Below, one piece after another: positions 9,079 to 17,385 of a DNA stretch of 17,385 bases (its first letter is position 1; each line of letters begins with the position of its first letter). The stretch comes from Candidatus Fermentibacterota bacterium (GTDB taxonomy: Bacteria > JAFGKV01): positions 1 through 17,385 of the forward strand of contig JAUXFG010000079.1 in NCBI GenBank assembly GCA_030620115.1, in the 5' to 3' direction. Below the pieces are notes generated by a model that was not told where the DNA came from, did no database searches, and was given only the letters and a program-made list of their open reading frames with translations. The position numbers and the translations under genes are program-made.

Positions 9079-9204
9079 AGCACATATGGTCATTGCATGT
9101 ATGGCGAAACCGGGATACGTTGAGACGCTATCTACGGTTGAATTCAAGGGTCCCGCATGAGGGATGCCGAATATCAGGGTGATAATTGGTTTCGATTTTT
9201 TTCA

Positions 9205-9210
9205 AAGGAG
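9205..9210 (+). promoter_or_regulatory. Ribosome binding site that sets the transglutaminase start at 9217
   Basis: AAGGAG lies 6 nt before the ATG at 9217. That ATG opens directly on a signal peptide, whereas the upstream in-frame ATG at 9157 would add 20 residues with no such signal. Confidence 0.8.
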
Positions 9211-9216
9211 AATGAT

Positions 9217-12200
9217 ATGCGCAAGAGCTTCACACGGTTGTCTCGGTTGAGCGTTGTTGCACTGGTTTTCTTTTGTCTTGTTGCGACGTCGGTGGCTCAG
9301 GACAGCTCATCCGGCGAGGATTATTCCCGAGGACTTCTTGAGCGGATTGCTGTCATCGAGGCCGCGCGGGATGTGACGCAGGAACGGTTCCCTAATGCTG
9401 ATGATGTGCTGGTGGATGATCATATTCGCGTGCGGTATCACGCCGATGGCACCTATGTCGTGTGGGATGATACATATCTGAAGGTTTTGACCGAGAAGGG
9501 AAAGCGACAGCACCAGACGCTCTCAATCCATTTCACCATCCCCTACTCCAGGTACGATGACGAGGAGAAGGATATCGCCATAAGAATCCTGGAGCTGATC
9601 AAGCCGGACGGAACCGTTGTTCCTGTTGATGTGGAAGAACTCAGCCGCGTCATGATCGATCCCAGCAGTATGGGATCGAATATCTACAACCCCAACAGCA
9701 AGATCCTTCAGGCCACAATCCCCGGTCTCGAAATCGGGGATATGGTTCACTATGTCACGTATCGAAAGGTGCGTCAACCGCGCGTCCGGGATGTCTGGGC
9801 AGACTTGAATGTGTTTGAATATTCAAGCCCTCTCAAGCACATGATCTATGAGGTTATCGGACCAAGAGACAAGCCCCTGCGCAGCATTGTCCTCAAGGAT
9901 GAAATCCCTGGAACGGTGAAGCATACCAAAACTGAAGGTGACGATGATATCGTGTATCGCTGGGAGGTGCGGGATGTTCCCCGCATGTTCGCCGAGCCGA
10001 GCATGCCCGGGCTTACGGAGGTTGTGCAGCGTCTTCTTGTAAGTACAGCGCCTGATTGGGAGACCATCTCTCGCTGGTACTGGCAACTCTCTGAACCCCA
10101 CTACGACACCACGCCGGCCATGAAGCAGAAGGTTGCAGAGCTGACTGAGGGGCTTTCTGATAGGCGGGCGCGAATAGAGGCACTCTTCAGATGGGTCTCT
10201 CAGGAAGTCCGCTACCTGGGAATCACCACGGAGGCTGAGGCCCCTGGCTATGAACCCCATGACGTGGCGGAGACCTTTACGCAGCGGCACGGTGTCTGCC
10301 GGGATAAAGCTGCTCTGCTGGTGGCAATGCTGCGACTGGACGGTTGCAAGGCCTGGCCGATTCTTATCATGCAAGGGCCCACCAAGAAGGATATCGAGGT
10401 CCCGCTGCCCTGGTTCAACCATGCCATTGCGTGTGTGGAGAACGAAAACGGCTCCTATGTGCTCATGGATCCCACTGATGAGAGTACCAAGGAGATTCTC
10501 CCGGCCTATCTCAATGACAAGAGCTACATGGTGGCGAAGCCCGAAGGAGATACGCTCCGAACCTCGCCCATTGTCCCGGCCGAAGAGAACCTCATGCGCA
10601 TCACGACCACTGGTTCCATTGATGCCGCAGGGAAGCTCACGGCTGAGAGCAGTCTCGAATTCGAAGGCATCAATGACAATGGCTATCGAGGCTACTTTGC
10701 GCGAATCGCACCAGAACAGCGGCGCGAGTACTTTGAGGGTGCACTGAAGAATGTGATCTCAGGCGCCAGGATCACTGATCTTTCGATTTTGCCGGAGGAT
10801 ATGCTCGACACATCGACGCCACTTCACGTGACGACGTCTTTCGAGGCAGAGGACGTATTCGTTTCCGGTGATCACTCAGTGATGCTCCCTGTGCCACGGC
10901 TTGGTACCCGCGTTGGCTGGACCAGTTTTGTGCTTCGAGGAAGGACTGGTCTGGAGGAACGAGAATATCCACTGAAAACCACTATCGCCTGTGGAGTAGA
11001 GGAAACGATCCGGCTTGATCTGCCTCCTCTCCTGGGCGAGGTCTTATCCATGCCGAGCTATCCGTGCATCGACAACGAGGCAATCTCCTGGACACAGCGT
11101 GATGAATTGAGTGCAGATGGTTCGGTGCTCACGGGCGCCACGGAATTCCTGCTCAAGGCGGTGGAGTTCAGTCCGGAGGAGTACCTCACCCTCAAACAGG
11201 CACTGAAGGAGAGAGACCGAAGTCGTTACAAGATGCCGATCTTCGCCCGAGAAGAAGACGAAACGAGCGCCTTGATCGCGACATCTCAGAACGAGGGTGA
11301 CATCGAGACCCTGATTCTCGAGCAGCAGATTGAATACGATTTGGAGGATGCCCACAACTGGACCGAAACCGTGACGACCAAGAAGAAGATCCTGAGCTAT
11401 GCCGGCAAGAAGAGGAACTCGGAGCTCAAGATCCACTACAATCCCGTGTGGGAGGAAGTAACCTTTGAGTATGCTCGGGTTATTGCTCCCGACGGTTCCG
11501 TGCAGGAGATCCGGCCGGAAGAGCAGAATGTCATGGATGCCCCATGGGTGGGCAGTGCACCGCGTTACCCGGCCTCAAAAGTCCTGGTGTCGAGCCTTCC
11601 CGGCGTGGAAATTGGAAGTACCATAGAATACAAATATCTCCGACGATACAGTGATCATCCCTTTTTCGCCGCACGAACCGGGCTTTGGCGCATGGATCCC
11701 GTGGGGAAGCTGGAGGTGGTGGTCAGATATCCTTCGGAGCTCGAGATTGTCGCTGATTTGGATGCAAACGGTTTCTCGTATGAAGAGGGGATTGGAATTC
11801 CCGGGCCTGTAGTGCAGGAGGAGCGTCTTGTTGAGGGGAACAGGAGCATCTGTCGCTGGACGATACGAGAAGCAAGAGTCATCAAACGAGAAGACTCGGT
11901 TCCACCACTCGATGCCTTCACTCCCACGGTCACGGCATATGCCGGTGGATGGGACGCCTACGGAGATCAGGTCAGGGATGTCCTACGATCCAATGCCTCC
12001 GGACAGAACAATGCCGGACAGCGCGCCAAGGATCTTATGCGTGGGCTCAAGACGCCTGAGTCGAAACTTACGGCGATCCGGGATTTCGTAGCCCGGAACA
12101 TACGGCAGGCAGGTCCCCGGCTTGATGAGATTCCCTTTTCCCGGCTGAGCAAGGCCGATTTGACCCTGCAAGAAGGGTATGGGAATAGTGCCGACCGCGC

Positions 12201-13188
12201 GACGCTCCTCTACGCCATGCTGGCAAAGGCGGGCTTCAAGCCGGAGTTTGTCCTGGCCGGTTCCAAGGTGTCGAGAGTGAGGTCTCTCCAGGAGGCGGTT
12301 GGACAACATCCAGATCCTCGATGGTTCGACGAAGTGCTGGTTCGCGTACAAGAGAACGGCGAATACATGTACTTCAACGACACGGATCAGTACGCGGTGC
12401 TTGGCGCCACGCCGCACGAGGAGCGAGTGGGCCTTGTCCCGAAAGAGGGAGAATTGACGCGGATCCTCAGCAGAGCCGGCAAGGAGGCCAGGAAGGATCT
12501 TTTCTCCATGATTCGTCTTTCCGAGTCAGGCGATGCGACGATCAGGAAGATCCAACGCGTGTACGGCAGCCAGTATGCGGCAGCACATAAGAAGTACGCG
12601 GAGATGCCCCCTGAGGAGAGAGCGCGTCACCATCAGGAGTTGTTGACCTCCGTTGCGGAGGGGGCAATGGCTGAGGGGGATCTGATCACTGATTTTGATA
12701 CGCATCCAGGGACTGTGGAGTTCTCCGCCCGGGTGACGCAGTTCGGCGTACGGGATGGGGATTTTCTCTACTTCCGGTTGCCGGAAACCCTTGATAAGCT
12801 CATGAGGCTTCGCGGTGATACCCGGGAATCGCCACACTACCGCGATAAACATATTCGCACGAGAATCGTGACCATCGTGGCCCTGCCCGAAAAGTTCGGG
12901 AATGTCGAACTTCAGCCGGCCGAGTTTCTTTGGGTTGCACCTCTAAATTCGGGCACGGTAGCGGTGACCACGGGACAGTGGGTTGCCGGCAGCGCGGTTC
13001 CACCTGAGCTTTTCGGGCTCGATATAGAACTGACCGGCATAAAGGGTCGTGTGTTTTGGGTTGTGCATGATGCGGATCTTGATCCGGCACTCATTGATGC
13101 CTCGGACTATGCCGAAATGCTGGAGATCATGCGCCGGCTCGGCCATCCGGCTGCGCGTACCGTGCTGCTCGCACATTCGGCGAGTTGA
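9217..13188 (+). CDS. Exported tandem DUF3857-transglutaminase protein with degenerate second half
   Basis: A 1323-aa exported protein. The signal peptide (MRKSFTRLSRLSVVALVFF...) is probably cleaved after SVA near residue 27. It consists of two halves, each a DUF3857-like beta domain followed by a transglutaminase-like domain and a beta tail. Half 1: DUF3857 at about 60-250 (ILQATIPGLEIGD), transglutaminase at about 310-440, DUF3858-like tail at 460-610. Half 2: DUF3857 at about 700-890 (VLVSSLPGVEIGS), transglutaminase-like at about 945-1065, then the tail. Half 1 keeps the papain-like triad: C361 (GVCRDKA), H402 (WFNHAI), D418 (DPTD). Half 2 has Ser991 (GNSADRA), Glu1039 (WFDEVL) and Asn1054 (NDTD) there, so it is probably inactive. 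Such proteins are common in Bacteroidota-type genomes, but their substrate is not established. It is followed after 55 nt by the TPR gene. Confidence 0.88.
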   Translation: MRKSFTRLSRLSVVALVFFCLVATSVAQDSSSGEDYSRGLLERIAVIEAARDVTQERFPNADDVLVDDHIRVRYHADGTYVVWDDTYLKVLTEKGKRQHQTLSIHFTIPYSRYDDEEKDIAIRILELIKPDGTVVPVDVEELSRVMIDPSSMGSNIYNPNSKILQATIPGLEIGDMVHYVTYRKVRQPRVRDVWADLNVFEYSSPLKHMIYEVIGPRDKPLRSIVLKDEIPGTVKHTKTEGDDDIVYRWEVRDVPRMFAEPSMPGLTEVVQRLLVSTAPDWETISRWYWQLSEPHYDTTPAMKQKVAELTEGLSDRRARIEALFRWVSQEVRYLGITTEAEAPGYEPHDVAETFTQRHGVCRDKAALLVAMLRLDGCKAWPILIMQGPTKKDIEVPLPWFNHAIACVENENGSYVLMDPTDESTKEILPAYLNDKSYMVAKPEGDTLRTSPIVPAEENLMRITTTGSIDAAGKLTAESSLEFEGINDNGYRGYFARIAPEQRREYFEGALKNVISGARITDLSILPEDMLDTSTPLHVTTSFEAEDVFVSGDHSVMLPVPRLGTRVGWTSFVLRGRTGLEEREYPLKTTIACGVEETIRLDLPPLLGEVLSMPSYPCIDNEAISWTQRDELSADGSVLTGATEFLLKAVEFSPEEYLTLKQALKERDRSRYKMPIFAREEDETSALIATSQNEGDIETLILEQQIEYDLEDAHNWTETVTTKKKILSYAGKKRNSELKIHYNPVWEEVTFEYARVIAPDGSVQEIRPEEQNVMDAPWVGSAPRYPASKVLVSSLPGVEIGSTIEYKYLRRYSDHPFFAARTGLWRMDPVGKLEVVVRYPSELEIVADLDANGFSYEEGIGIPGPVVQEERLVEGNRSICRWTIREARVIKREDSVPPLDAFTPTVTAYAGGWDAYGDQVRDVLRSNASGQNNAGQRAKDLMRGLKTPESKLTAIRDFVARNIRQAGPRLDEIPFSRLSKADLTLQEGYGNSADRATLLYAMLAKAGFKPEFVLAGSKVSRVRSLQEAVGQHPDPRWFDEVLVRVQENGEYMYFNDTDQYAVLGATPHEERVGLVPKEGELTRILSRAGKEARKDLFSMIRLSESGDATIRKIQRVYGSQYAAAHKKYAEMPPEERARHHQELLTSVAEGAMAEGDLITDFDTHPGTVEFSARVTQFGVRDGDFLYFRLPETLDKLMRLRGDTRESPHYRDKHIRTRIVTIVALPEKFGNVELQPAEFLWVAPLNSGTVAVTTGQWVAGSAVPPELFGLDIELTGIKGRVFWVVHDADLDPALIDASDYAEMLEIMRRLGHPAARTVLLAHSAS

Positions 13189-13243
13189 GGGTTTGCGCAG
13201 GATGGCGTCTTCCTGAACACGGGCCAGACTCGGGGGATCTGAT

Positions 13244-14230
13244 TTGCCCATGGATGCCAAAGCGAGCTTCCTGAAACTGAGGCTTGACGAAGTCAGGAGA
13301 CTCAAGTCAGAGGGGAGGCTCGATGAGGCAGCCCGGCTTCTTGAGGAGACGTGGGAGAGCGCCCCCGGGCATCCACACCTCGTATTGAGTTTCGCTGGTC
13401 TCTATCTGCGAAAGAAAGAACCAGAGAAGGCGGTGGAATTGCTCAAGGCGCACCGTGAGAAGTTGTTTGGTGATCGTATCTATCATAACCTCCTGGCGCA
13501 GGCTCTCCGGGGGGTGGGCAGCCCGAAGGAGGCGCTGGAGGAAGTCCGTCTCGTCCAGGGAACCGATCCTGATCAAGCGAGCCTGACCGCACAGATTCTT
13601 TTTGATCTGAGCGAGTATGAAGAGGCGTATGCCCTTCTCAAGAGGGCTCTCTCGATTCACTCCGAGCATCGAGGGCTCCTGCGTCTTCTCGCCCGGAGCG
13701 CGGAGAAAATGGGGAGGCCGGACGAAGCGCTCGATCTCATCGAGAGACTCCTCCGAATCGAGCCCACCGATAAGTTCGCCTATAAGGAGAAGATCCGGCT
13801 GAAGATGGCAGGCCTCGGAGCTCAAGGCGCCGATGAACTCGATCGGCTCCTCAAGCTCAAACGGGGCCGCGAGAACATACATCTTCTTAGCCTCAAGGCG
13901 AAGAAGCTGTACGACGAAAAAGCGTACGAAGATGCAGCCCGCGTCTTTGCCGAGGTATTGGATCGAGCACCACAAAACCGGTACAACCGTTGTATGCTTG
14001 GATACTCCCTTCGCAAGTCGGGGAAGCCCAGGGAGGCGGTTGCGCACTTGAGTATCTCGTTCCTCGAGAATCCGAGAGACAGGTTCGTGCGGGCAAGTCT
14101 GGAGAAGAGTTGCAAAGAGATCGGAGATCTGCCGCGCTTGGCGGATTTGGCGCGGCAAGCACTCGCCGCACATCCTGACTTGCGCTTTCTTTGGGGTTGG
14201 GTGAAGATGGGCGAGAAAGAGAACGAATAA
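13244..14230 (+). CDS. TPR-repeat protein
   Basis: A 328-aa soluble protein built almost wholly of tetratricopeptide-type helical pairs: about seven or eight units from residue 10 to 310, with the usual small and aromatic positions, e.g. GRLDEAARLLEE, KEPEKAVELLK, GSPKEALEEV, GRPDEALDLIERLL, KAYEDAARVFAEVLD and GKPREAVAHL. There is no signal peptide or membrane span, so it is probably a cytoplasmic scaffold or adaptor. The TTG at 13244 has GGGGGAT about 6 nt upstream. The in-frame ATG at 13250 is possible but badly spaced from that site. It ends 11 nt before the ATPase start, and the next gene's ribosome binding site overlaps this stop codon, so translation may be coupled. A role as partner of the ATPase is an inference. 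Confidence 0.85.
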   Translation: MPMDAKASFLKLRLDEVRRLKSEGRLDEAARLLEETWESAPGHPHLVLSFAGLYLRKKEPEKAVELLKAHREKLFGDRIYHNLLAQALRGVGSPKEALEEVRLVQGTDPDQASLTAQILFDLSEYEEAYALLKRALSIHSEHRGLLRLLARSAEKMGRPDEALDLIERLLRIEPTDKFAYKEKIRLKMAGLGAQGADELDRLLKLKRGRENIHLLSLKAKKLYDEKAYEDAARVFAEVLDRAPQNRYNRCMLGYSLRKSGKPREAVAHLSISFLENPRDRFVRASLEKSCKEIGDLPRLADLARQALAAHPDLRFLWGWVKMGEKENE

Positions 14231-14241
14231 GGACAGGCGAC

Positions 14242-17200
14242 ATGAAGGGTGGGGAAAGAATGAGGGTCGGAGATCTGGTGGGTATCAACCCGATCAAGAC
14301 GGTGATCCACCTGAAGGACTCCGACCAGGCCCCCGATGAGCTTGTCTCTAGCTTTGTGATTACCGATGAGGTGGAATTCGGGCTCAAGATCCTTCTTTCG
14401 CGCATGGCGCGTGGAGCGGGAGCCGGCCTCTTCGTCAAGGGGCACTATGGCACGGGCAAGTCCCATTTCCTTGCCTATCTTACCTTGCTTTTTCGGGGAC
14501 ATTCGGAAGCCTCTTCTCTCCTGCAGACCGCGCCGGAACTTATTCCCCTATGGCAGGAGCTGCCTCGCGTGGGCGTGGCCAGCGTCTCCCTGCTTGACTA
14601 TCAGGCCACCTTCTCGTTGGAGGAGATCGTCTGCGCCGGGTTGGCAAAGGAGTATGAGGTCATCTATCCAGGGCCCAACCGGCGTGAGTTCTTTTCCAGC
14701 ATCAAGGCGGCCCAGGAGAAGCGCGGGCAAGAGGGGCTGGTCATTATTCTCGATGAGCTTTCCGAGTTTCTCCGGGCCACTCCGTCAGGGCCCCCATTCA
14801 ACGAAGATCTGAGATTCCTCCAGTTCTTGGGCGAGGAGGCCTCCTCCTTCCCCCTCTGGATCCTGGCCTCGTTGCAGGAGGATATTGAGCATACGGGGCA
14901 TATTGCCACTGCGGTGTTCCTGAAAATCAAGGATCGCTATCCCCTCCGAGTCACGTTCGATATGCCCCATGTGCGCGAGCTGGTGGCCACACGGCTTGTG
15001 TACAAGAAAAGCGGCGCCGAGGAAGGCCTCCGCTCAGTATGGCAAGAGCTTTCCAGCGCCTTTCCCCGCGTTGGCTTTACCTACGATGAGTTCTTCCCGC
15101 TCTATCCTCTGCATCCAGCCACCATCGATTTCTTCGAAGAGCTCAAGTTCCTTCTCTCGCAGAAGAGGGGCGTGGTGGACTTCATCTACTACCGGCTCAA
15201 GGGCGATCCAGACCGAAACATCAGCCCCTTCCTGGATATGGAAGCCGCACGACTCCTTACCCCTGATTACATCTTTGATCACTTTCGATCGCGTCTTGCG
15301 GAGCTTCCCGAAGCTGCTGCGTATGTGGATCGTGTGTGGACCTACTTCAAGAAGGAAATCCCCCGTTTCTTTGATGATGAGGGTGACCGGGAGGTGACAC
15401 TTCGTGTCGTCAAGATACTGATTCTCAAGGCCCTCTCGTCGGGGGGAGGTCAACTCAGCGTCCGGGAGCTTGCCGAAGCGCTCCTCATACCCCATTCCCA
15501 GCTCGATCCGGAACTCAACTATTTCTATCTCAAGGACATCCTGGATACGATCTGGAAAAAGGGTGCCTTCGTGGTCAGAACGGAGGAAGGCGATGATCTC
15601 GAAGTCTCCTACTCGATCTCCCTCAAGGAGGATCTGAGTCTCCTTCTCGCGCGACGACTCAAGGCGTTGAGAAAGGATCTCAAAGACCCCGCCGACACCC
15701 TTTTTCGGGGAGCCCTTACCCTTGTCGCGCAACCTCATCTTCCGCTGGCGTCCCTCGGGCTCGAAGAGAAATGGACCATCACGTGGCAGAATACCTCACG
15801 AGAAGGACGGGTGAGACTGGGGCTTCTCTCAGAGCTTGATCCCGAGAAGATGGAAGAGGCCGCCAGGGTATTCGGGCAGACGGAAGCGGATTGGTTTCTT
15901 TTCGTGGGACACCCATATCATGTGCAAGACCAGAGAAGCCGCCTTATGGACACCCTTTTGCCTGCGGCGCGGACCAGGGATCTGAAGACGGTTCTGTTCT
16001 GGCTGCCGAAAGAGGTCCCATTGAACGAGCGGCTCCTGGAGATGGCGGCGCGCCTCGAATTGAAGCGAAGACTTGCCGCTGATCCGGATTCGAAGAGGGT
16101 CACCAAGCTTCTGGATGAACTGATCGTCGATGATCTGCCGCTCCTGCGTGAGTGGCTCAACGAAAGCTATTTCTCCGGAGAGGCGGTGAACCCCTTTGAG
16201 GAAGAGGCCGTGGACCTCTCGCGTTTTGGCCTCATCCCCTTTGAAAACCTTCTTACCGGAATCCTCGGGGCGCCTCTTGCGCGTGCCTTTCCGCGACATG
16301 CAGCTGTTGCACCCACGGCGAGAAGCGTGCTCACCACGGCTGTGGAGGAGGTGGTGGAGAAATTCCTGCGTCCCGGAGAACTGAGTCTCGAGCCGGGCCG
16401 GGGCTTCAACCTGCGCGTGGTCATCGAAGGGTATCTCAAACCATTGGGACTTGTGCATGGCTCCAGGCGAAGCTATCGGCTGAAGGTGGATCCGCAGAAG
16501 AATCAGCTTCTCGCGCATCTGCTGCAAGAGGTTGGACCTGAAGGCATCAACCGCGAGGCGCTCTACTGGCGCCTGAGAAAAGGCCCCTACGGGCTTGATC
16601 AGACCTCCAATCACATCCTCGTGCTTGCACTTGTGCTTTCAGGAGTGCTCATCCCTTTTTCACGGGAACGACGCGTCCCGCTGTCCCGGATCGGCTACCG
16701 TAGGATCTCGGGAATAGAGTTCTTGAAGCGCGGGAGACTCATCGCACACCGGCTCTCTGAGCGGCTCGCCGAGCTTGACTGGCTCGACAAGGGCTTCCGT
16801 CGCATGGATATCACGCTTGCTTCGCAAGAGAAGTTGTGGCGTCACCTGATCGAGGAAGCCTCCAGGCTGCGCGACATGACCGACAGGCTCCACACGTTTC
16901 TCCAGAGATACCATGACTTTGAAGTGCTCAAGGATCTGCCACTCGATCGTCTGCCCAAGGACCTCGAAGACGCGGGGCGTTTTTTGGAGCTTATCCAGGT
17001 CTCCAAACCGGCGATAGAAGGGCTGGAGACGTTCTTGGAAGGCGTGGTTCATCTTCCCTTCTGGAAGGACACGAGAGCCCGGATGATTCGATTTCTCGAT
17101 TTTTTTCAGAATGAGTTCGATCGATATCTTTTTTTGCGCAGCTACCTCGAAGAGGCCGGAAAGGTCCTTCCGCCGGGTACGCCGCACGAGCATGCGCGCG

Positions 17201-17385
17201 AGTTGTGGGAAGAGGCCGCGGGGTTCGCGCGTGACCCGTCTGCATTTTTTCAGCCGGACTTCTTGTCGAGCCTGAACCATACCTTCGAGCTTTTCCTCGC
17301 GAAATACACTGTGGTCTACTGTGAAGCGCATGACGAGGCGTTTGGCCTCGAGGTCTACGAAGACATGGCCGCCCTGCGGCAGACC
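14242..17385 (+). CDS. Large P-loop ATPase, PglY/BrxC (DUF6079)-like, truncated at window edge
   Basis: The frame is open for 1048 codons from the ATG at 14242 to the last base, so the C-terminus is missing. AAGGA overlapping the TPR stop is its ribosome binding site. MRVGDLVGINPIKTVIHLKD precedes Walker A GHYGTGKSHFLAYL (GHYGTGKS at 67-74). Walker B is LVIILDELSEFL (D171, E172), followed by LWILASLQE and YPLHPATIDFFEEL (288-301). Winged-helix-like segments follow near 386-460 and 745-815 (GPYGLDQTSNHILVLALVLSGVLIP), then a long helical region with FLAKYTVVYCEAHDEA. The KGHYGTGKSHFL motif, large size and PYGL winged helix are those I associate with PglY/BrxC ATPases of BREX anti-phage systems and DUF6079 relatives. 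The substrate is not known; DNA or nucleoprotein remodelling is an inference. A diverged DUF499-type ATPase is the main alternative. Confidence 0.75.
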   Translation, partial: MKGGERMRVGDLVGINPIKTVIHLKDSDQAPDELVSSFVITDEVEFGLKILLSRMARGAGAGLFVKGHYGTGKSHFLAYLTLLFRGHSEASSLLQTAPELIPLWQELPRVGVASVSLLDYQATFSLEEIVCAGLAKEYEVIYPGPNRREFFSSIKAAQEKRGQEGLVIILDELSEFLRATPSGPPFNEDLRFLQFLGEEASSFPLWILASLQEDIEHTGHIATAVFLKIKDRYPLRVTFDMPHVRELVATRLVYKKSGAEEGLRSVWQELSSAFPRVGFTYDEFFPLYPLHPATIDFFEELKFLLSQKRGVVDFIYYRLKGDPDRNISPFLDMEAARLLTPDYIFDHFRSRLAELPEAAAYVDRVWTYFKKEIPRFFDDEGDREVTLRVVKILILKALSSGGGQLSVRELAEALLIPHSQLDPELNYFYLKDILDTIWKKGAFVVRTEEGDDLEVSYSISLKEDLSLLLARRLKALRKDLKDPADTLFRGALTLVAQPHLPLASLGLEEKWTITWQNTSREGRVRLGLLSELDPEKMEEAARVFGQTEADWFLFVGHPYHVQDQRSRLMDTLLPAARTRDLKTVLFWLPKEVPLNERLLEMAARLELKRRLAADPDSKRVTKLLDELIVDDLPLLREWLNESYFSGEAVNPFEEEAVDLSRFGLIPFENLLTGILGAPLARAFPRHAAVAPTARSVLTTAVEEVVEKFLRPGELSLEPGRGFNLRVVIEGYLKPLGLVHGSRRSYRLKVDPQKNQLLAHLLQEVGPEGINREALYWRLRKGPYGLDQTSNHILVLALVLSGVLIPFSRERRVPLSRIGYRRISGIEFLKRGRLIAHRLSERLAELDWLDKGFRRMDITLASQEKLWRHLIEEASRLRDMTDRLHTFLQRYHDFEVLKDLPLDRLPKDLEDAGRFLELIQVSKPAIEGLETFLEGVVHLPFWKDTRARMIRFLDFFQNEFDRYLFLRSYLEEAGKVLPPGTPHEHARELWEEAAGFARDPSAFFQPDFLSSLNHTFELFLAKYTVVYCEAHDEAFGLEVYEDMAALRQT

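Follow-up and report, generated by a model that had tools for sequence, protein, structure and literature searches.

The 17,385-nt window analyzed here, which is the entire contig G000:C26 of a 4.1-Mb draft genome (G000) of Candidatus Fermentibacterota, ends inside a gene for a large ATPase that lies directly behind a gene for a tetratricopeptide repeat (TPR) protein. We found that the ATPase belongs to a family known from bacteriophage exclusion (BREX) systems, that its relatives are partnered by the same family of TPR proteins, that most complete relatives carry in the same chain a PglZ domain whose catalytic site appears intact in alignments and structural models, and that no PglX methyltransferase gene lies beside these fused members. 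We hold this structural description of the family with high confidence. Taken together, the findings point, with a probability of roughly 60%, to a self-contained, BREX-derived module of two genes, in which an ATP-controlled DNA nuclease and a TPR regulator or sensor act against invaders.

The ATPase and its TPR partner

The genes and motifs that carry the argument are given below; invariance refers to 35 aligned sequences.
13250 to 14230, + strand: gene for the TPR protein, 326 aa from ATG 13250 (TTG 13244 is an alternative start); TPR_19 match, E 8.7e-27
14219 to 14241, + strand: TPR-ATPase junction; the stop codon TAA 14228-14230 is overlapped by an AAGGA-like ribosome-binding site, with 11 nt to ATG 14242
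14242 to 17385, + strand: gene for the BrxC/PglY-like AAA+ ATPase, open at the contig end; assigned by DUF6079, BrxC profile, model and tree
14440 to 14466, + strand: Walker A, GHYGTGKSH; G, G, G, K, S and H invariant
14740 to 14772, + strand: Walker B, VIILDELSEFL; D and E invariant
15103 to 15117, + strand: YPLHP motif; Y, P and P invariant, H nearly so
16585 to 16596, + strand: PYGL motif; G invariant

A first-pass annotation, made from the sequence of this stretch, had proposed a PglY/BrxC-like ATPase on the strength of a Walker A motif in the context GHYGTGKSHFL, a Walker B motif, which reads IILDELSEFL, and the motifs YPLHP and PYGL, the last of which it took for part of a winged helix. 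All four motifs are present, and the assignment was borne out by profile and fold comparisons. Residues 7-350 matched Pfam DUF6079 (E 7.6e-34; 116.8 bits, cut-off 23), and the best PADLOC match was BrxC/PglY (E 5.7e-29). The NCBIfam full-length BREX models were not reached (BrxC 67.8 bits, cut-off 400; PglY 13.9, cut-off 1700); the window ATPase is truncated, and its Pfam and PADLOC matches are also confined to its N-terminal third. An AlphaFold2 model of the window ATPase was built with 34 homologues (mean pLDDT, the predicted local distance difference test, 89) and compared over residues 2-455 with solved structures. The top fold was the BrxC ATPase (9zll and 9zdx), with Z scores of 23.5 and 22.9 over ~410 residues; the Z 23.5 match spans 408 residues, and the next family, the ORC/Cdc6 initiators, scored about 15. 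Given the profile match and the intact Walker A and B motifs, the protein is a member of the DUF6079/BrxC-PglY ATPase family. It is the only DUF6079 protein of the source genome, and its DNA had no match elsewhere in that genome.

The reading frame without a stop codon runs from 14191 to 17385 on the + strand. Translation likely starts at ATG 14242 or ATG 14260, and the latter agrees with the N-terminus of the homologues, M-R/K-I/V-x-DL. Since the window is the whole contig, nothing to the right of 17385 is readable, and a profile of the C-terminal half of the homologues failed to find a continuation of the gene in the genome bin, returning a PorX-like regulator and weak noise only.

Relatives were found well beyond the source phylum. 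A survey of 386 varied genomes yielded six others with a long match to the ATPase (28-37% identity, E 1e-74 to 1e-162) together with weaker BREX-type matches, and at least about 40 more such loci came from an alignment-based scan that covered 84,980 species genomes. The matches listed include Thermodesulfobacteriota, Bacillota (notably Halanaerobiales), Acidobacteriota, Planctomycetota, Actinomycetota, Myxococcota, Spirochaetota, Pseudomonadota, Armatimonadota and others; among them, the named records of the PglZ-fused group were all metagenome-assembled genomes or environmental assemblies. The set used for comparison comprised about 45 relatives, with 5 kb on both sides of the ATPase in only 17 loci. 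We built a tree on the N-terminal ~500 residues by a quick method with SH-aLRT (approximate likelihood-ratio) support and no bootstrap, using BREX-3-like and a few other BREX-like sequences, Types 1 and 2 left out, as the outgroup. A branch with an SH-aLRT of 100 split the window clade from 14 BREX-3-like BrxC proteins, and the window ATPase was placed inside the part of the clade that is mostly PglZ-fused and TPR-paired.

The close spacing of the two genes and the overlap of their translation signals, both remarked on in the first-pass annotation, are evident at the junction, and the pair proved to be conserved in other genomes. The TPR family, ~330 aa in length with a common C-terminal motif L-x-G-x-x-K/R (aligned in 26 loci), was the only widely recurrent neighbour of the ATPase, present in 30 of 47 loci by simple clustering and in 37 of 48 by a profile search of six-frame translations. 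It was found beside 32 of the 35 PglZ-fused members, two of the three exceptions having <1 kb of upstream sequence, and at one of seven complete clade members without PglZ (Fisher p 1e-4 versus the fused members, a descriptive value since the loci are related). A search of 43 BREX-like control loci gave one strong match, in L092, a locus that proved to be a truncated member of the clade, and none in the remaining 42. The TPR gene usually lies directly upstream of the ATPase gene, with a gap that is often 1-40 nt or with the genes overlapping, while in one supported subclade the two genes diverge. The pairing thus holds whether the genes are co-directional or divergent, and outlives operon order. 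Distance matrices of the two proteins were correlated (r 0.69; 0/2000 permutations), as would also be expected of any two co-travelling genes, which share descent. Two relatives, L035 and L036, lack both PglZ and TPR; upstream they carry instead a small gene whose product apparently has a membrane segment, and several of their downstream genes are common to both.

The fused PglZ domain and the search for BREX genes beside it

Most complete clade members are single chains of 1,400-1,970 residues in which the BrxC-type ATPase is followed by a C-terminal PglZ domain (n=35 fused loci). The domain comes after a conserved zinc-type Cys cluster and shows the pattern D...T...D-x3-H...DHG...HG, and its seven catalytic or metal-binding residues (D, T, D, H, D, H, H) are kept in nearly all fused members. 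In an AlphaFold model of the L042 C-terminus (pLDDT 87), the closest solved fold was the PglZ domain of PorX (Z 22.5, 261 residues); BREX PglZ gave Z 15.5 over 422 residues, far more than other phosphodiesterases, which stayed at about Z 10. Compared by profile with three BREX-3 PglZ proteins, the fused domain matched at E 2.3e-13, with D, T, D-x3-H and DHG in register. The structural match begins near residue 168 of BREX PglZ, so that the N-terminal domain of the latter is apparently missing from the fused form. As modeled, with the seven residues on an alkaline-phosphatase-like fold, the domain of the homologues is that of a PglZ phosphodiesterase. The Pfam PglZ model barely sees it (10 of 17 detected, best E 0.0015), and for this reason the fusion may have been overlooked so far. 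The contig of the window ends before this region; judging from its position in the tree, the window copy very probably has a PglZ half as well, beyond 17385.

PglZ domains were also seen outside the fused chains. Downstream of its module, L057 has a further stretch, at about +6.8 to +7.2 kb counted from the start of the ATPase, that gave a second match to the PglZ profile (E 3.5e-26). The only Pfam PglZ found in the source genome belongs to a PorX-like response regulator with receiver and PglZ domains (L121, G000:C185 10263-11963, - strand), which has a sensor-kinase-like open reading frame (ORF) directly upstream.

We queried the clade loci with BREX-3 genes, using 16 BREX-like loci as positive controls. 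Within the often short flanking sequence, a PglX methyltransferase was found beside none of the 35 PglZ-fused members, compared to 14 of the 16 controls, and BrxF queries matched no clade locus, compared to 14-15 of 16. There was no separate BREX-type PglZ beside the clade ATPases, and a helicase adjoins the TPR-ATPase pair in few loci only. These results speak against the suggestion of the first-pass annotation that the pair could be the beginning of a wider BREX-like locus in which methyltransferase, PglZ and helicase are encoded separately. The single BrxA query matched neither clade loci nor controls. Neither HerA nor DUF4007 nor STAND recurs among the neighbours, in which no search was aimed at them.

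A PglX-like methyltransferase was present in 1 of 47 clade loci overall. This locus, L077 (10013-16282), is a distant member from Armatimonadetes without PglZ or TPR, in which the methyltransferase gene lies directly downstream of the ATPase gene; it may connect the fused form with BREX-related systems. As for helicases, L041 (210-12052) has a RecQ helicase between its TPR and ATPase genes, and SNF2-type helicases lie near the module in L041, L042 (6924-9575) and L054 (6094-8553).

Left border and distribution

The left border of the module was located by comparison with two other genomes of the same phylum (G001 and G002).
13169 to 13249, no strand: left border of the module; nucleotide similarity to the sister genomes ends at 13184 (G001) and 13169 (G002)

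Both sister genomes lack the TPR gene as well as the ATPase. The upstream neighbour, at 9157-13188, encodes a 1,343-aa protein with two DUF3857 stretches and a transglutaminase core in an apparently duplicated architecture, and is 80% and 71% identical to its counterparts in the two sister genomes. The first-pass annotation was correct in naming a transglutaminase protein as the left neighbour, but this gene has no tie to the module, because it is kept in both sister genomes without the TPR-ATPase pair. We interpret the border as variability and not as a defined insertion, because the upstream order differs and the sister contigs end soon after; no break in base composition was found at the module. 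An ORF resembling the end of a transposase (L127, G002:C15 1-349) lies beyond the transglutaminase gene of G002, on the side that holds the TPR-ATPase pair in the window. In the class of another carrier, G076, the protein was found in 2 of 40 genomes, which belong to different families, and was absent in a congener. Such a patchy distribution fits an accessory, horizontally moving function.

Proposed function and relation to known systems

The anti-invader module that we favor would consist of two proteins. The first would combine an ORC/Cdc6-like BrxC-type AAA+ domain, a winged helix, an alpha/beta and coiled-coil region with a zinc-binding Cys cluster, and then PglZ, the fused PglZ part being a putative two-metal phosphodiesterase or nuclease; the second would be a dedicated TPR adaptor. 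PglZ has been shown to be a metal-dependent nuclease (PMC12205998), and BrxB bridges BrxC and PglZ in BREX (PMC13326643). We suggest that the ATPase assembles on DNA under ATP control, as BrxC does, and that the assembled ATPase would present its tethered PglZ nuclease to target DNA. The fusion may stand in for the BrxB bridge, which would be unnecessary because ATPase and PglZ are covalently joined. The TPR protein would recognise a trigger, or would regulate and license assembly of the ATPase, so that self and foreign might be told apart by the trigger that it reads and not by methylation. The outcome would be restriction of invading DNA, and defence against phages or other invaders is the likeliest role. 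A stricter version, in which a methylation-independent, single-effector immune system arose from BREX, with BrxC and PglZ as a DNA-loading nuclease and the TPR protein as the sensor or licensing factor replacing BrxA, BrxB and PglX, seems to us evenly poised between right and wrong.

Several observations weigh against an anti-invader module. The PglZ half of the window copy was found in neither the contig nor the genome bin, and seven complete clade members have no PglZ. Plasmids gave distant BREX-3 proteins only, and neither viral contigs (by protein and alignment searches) nor phage records contained the module. The neighbours are not enriched in defence genes but are mostly metabolic and transport genes, SNF2 helicases in three loci excepted; in a PADLOC scan of the neighbours, SNF2 helicase models, from these three loci, were the only recurrent ones among the 25 of 82 matched families listed. 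Finally, three Halanaerobiales copies lie in partly conserved, housekeeping-like surroundings. These ordinary neighbours, the common surroundings in Halanaerobiales and the failure to find plasmid or viral copies would suit a housekeeping or stress complex that re-uses BrxC and PglZ, with a TPR scaffold, for DNA processing in repair, replication or chromosome maintenance and has no role in defence, as would the RecQ and SNF2 helicases beside the module in L041, L042 and L054. We consider such a complex unlikely, since the module is very patchy, found in 2 of 40 genomes of one class and missing from a congener as well as from the two sister genomes, and since the BrxC relatives discussed in PMC13326643 belong to defence systems.

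It is less probable still that the window captured only part of a standard BREX or BREX-related locus and that the methyltransferase, PglZ and helicase genes follow past the contig end. The ATPase is BrxC-like, the right side is unseen, and in one distant, PglZ-less clade member, L077, a PglX-like methyltransferase gene indeed comes right after the ATPase gene; against this stand the position of the window in a mostly PglZ-fused, TPR-paired part of the tree, the count of 0/35 methyltransferases beside fused members, and a genome bin with no other DUF6079 protein and with a PorX-like regulator as its only PglZ. Slightly more doubtful again is a signalling enzyme, in which PglZ would, like that of PorX, degrade oligonucleotide messengers, cyclic or linear, while the ATPase and the TPR protein act as sensor and switch. 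Among solved folds, PorX PglZ is the one nearest to the fused domain (Z 22.5), and BREX PglZ also cleaves cyclic oligonucleotides (PMC12205998). However, BREX PglZ cuts double-stranded DNA as well, the attached ATPase comes from a DNA-binding family, and no nucleotide-cyclase gene recurs beside the module.

We found no description in the literature of a methyltransferase-free BREX relative with a BrxC-PglZ fusion and a TPR partner. The first-pass annotation had remarked that known BREX types do not pair this ATPase with a TPR protein, and indeed the terms TPR and tetratricopeptide have 0 occurrences in a 2026 survey of BREX and related systems (PMC12839542). A BrxC-PglZ fusion is likewise undescribed in the BrxC, PglZ and BREX-Related Capture (BRC) sections of that survey, its supplement aside. 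A literature search whose scope did not extend to preprints returned no paper joining BREX, PglZ and tetratricopeptide. One paper that combines PglZ domain, TPR, ATPase and fusion concerns GmrSD and not this module.

Comparison with known systems sets the module apart at several points. The BREX core of BrxB, BrxC and PglZ (Type 1, 9zdx, 9zll and 9zn5; BREX-3, DUF6079 plus PglZ) has the same BrxC AAA+ fold, PglZ domain and set of catalytic motifs. In contrast to this core, the module has ATPase and PglZ in one chain and a constant TPR partner, with no PglX, BrxF or separate PglZ beside its fused members. According to the sections of PMC12839542 noted above, BREX-Related (BR) and BRC systems likewise redeploy BrxC/DUF499-like ATPases outside BREX, and PglZ is the presumed effector of Type-3 BR and of BRC, as in the module. 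However, BR keeps a methyltransferase and a helicase, BRC retains separate genes for HerA, DUF4007 and a STAND NTPase, and none is described there with a BrxC-PglZ fusion or a TPR partner. PorX-type regulators have the PglZ fold closest to that of the module, but they have a receiver domain and lack a BrxC-like ATPase.

The way in which BREX stops phages is an open question, in part because each locus encodes between four and eight interdependent proteins, which methylate DNA as well. A natural single chain of ATPase and nuclease, with one partner and no methyltransferase, could allow the restriction half to be studied alone, and the module would show whether the BrxC-PglZ core tells invader from host without methylation.
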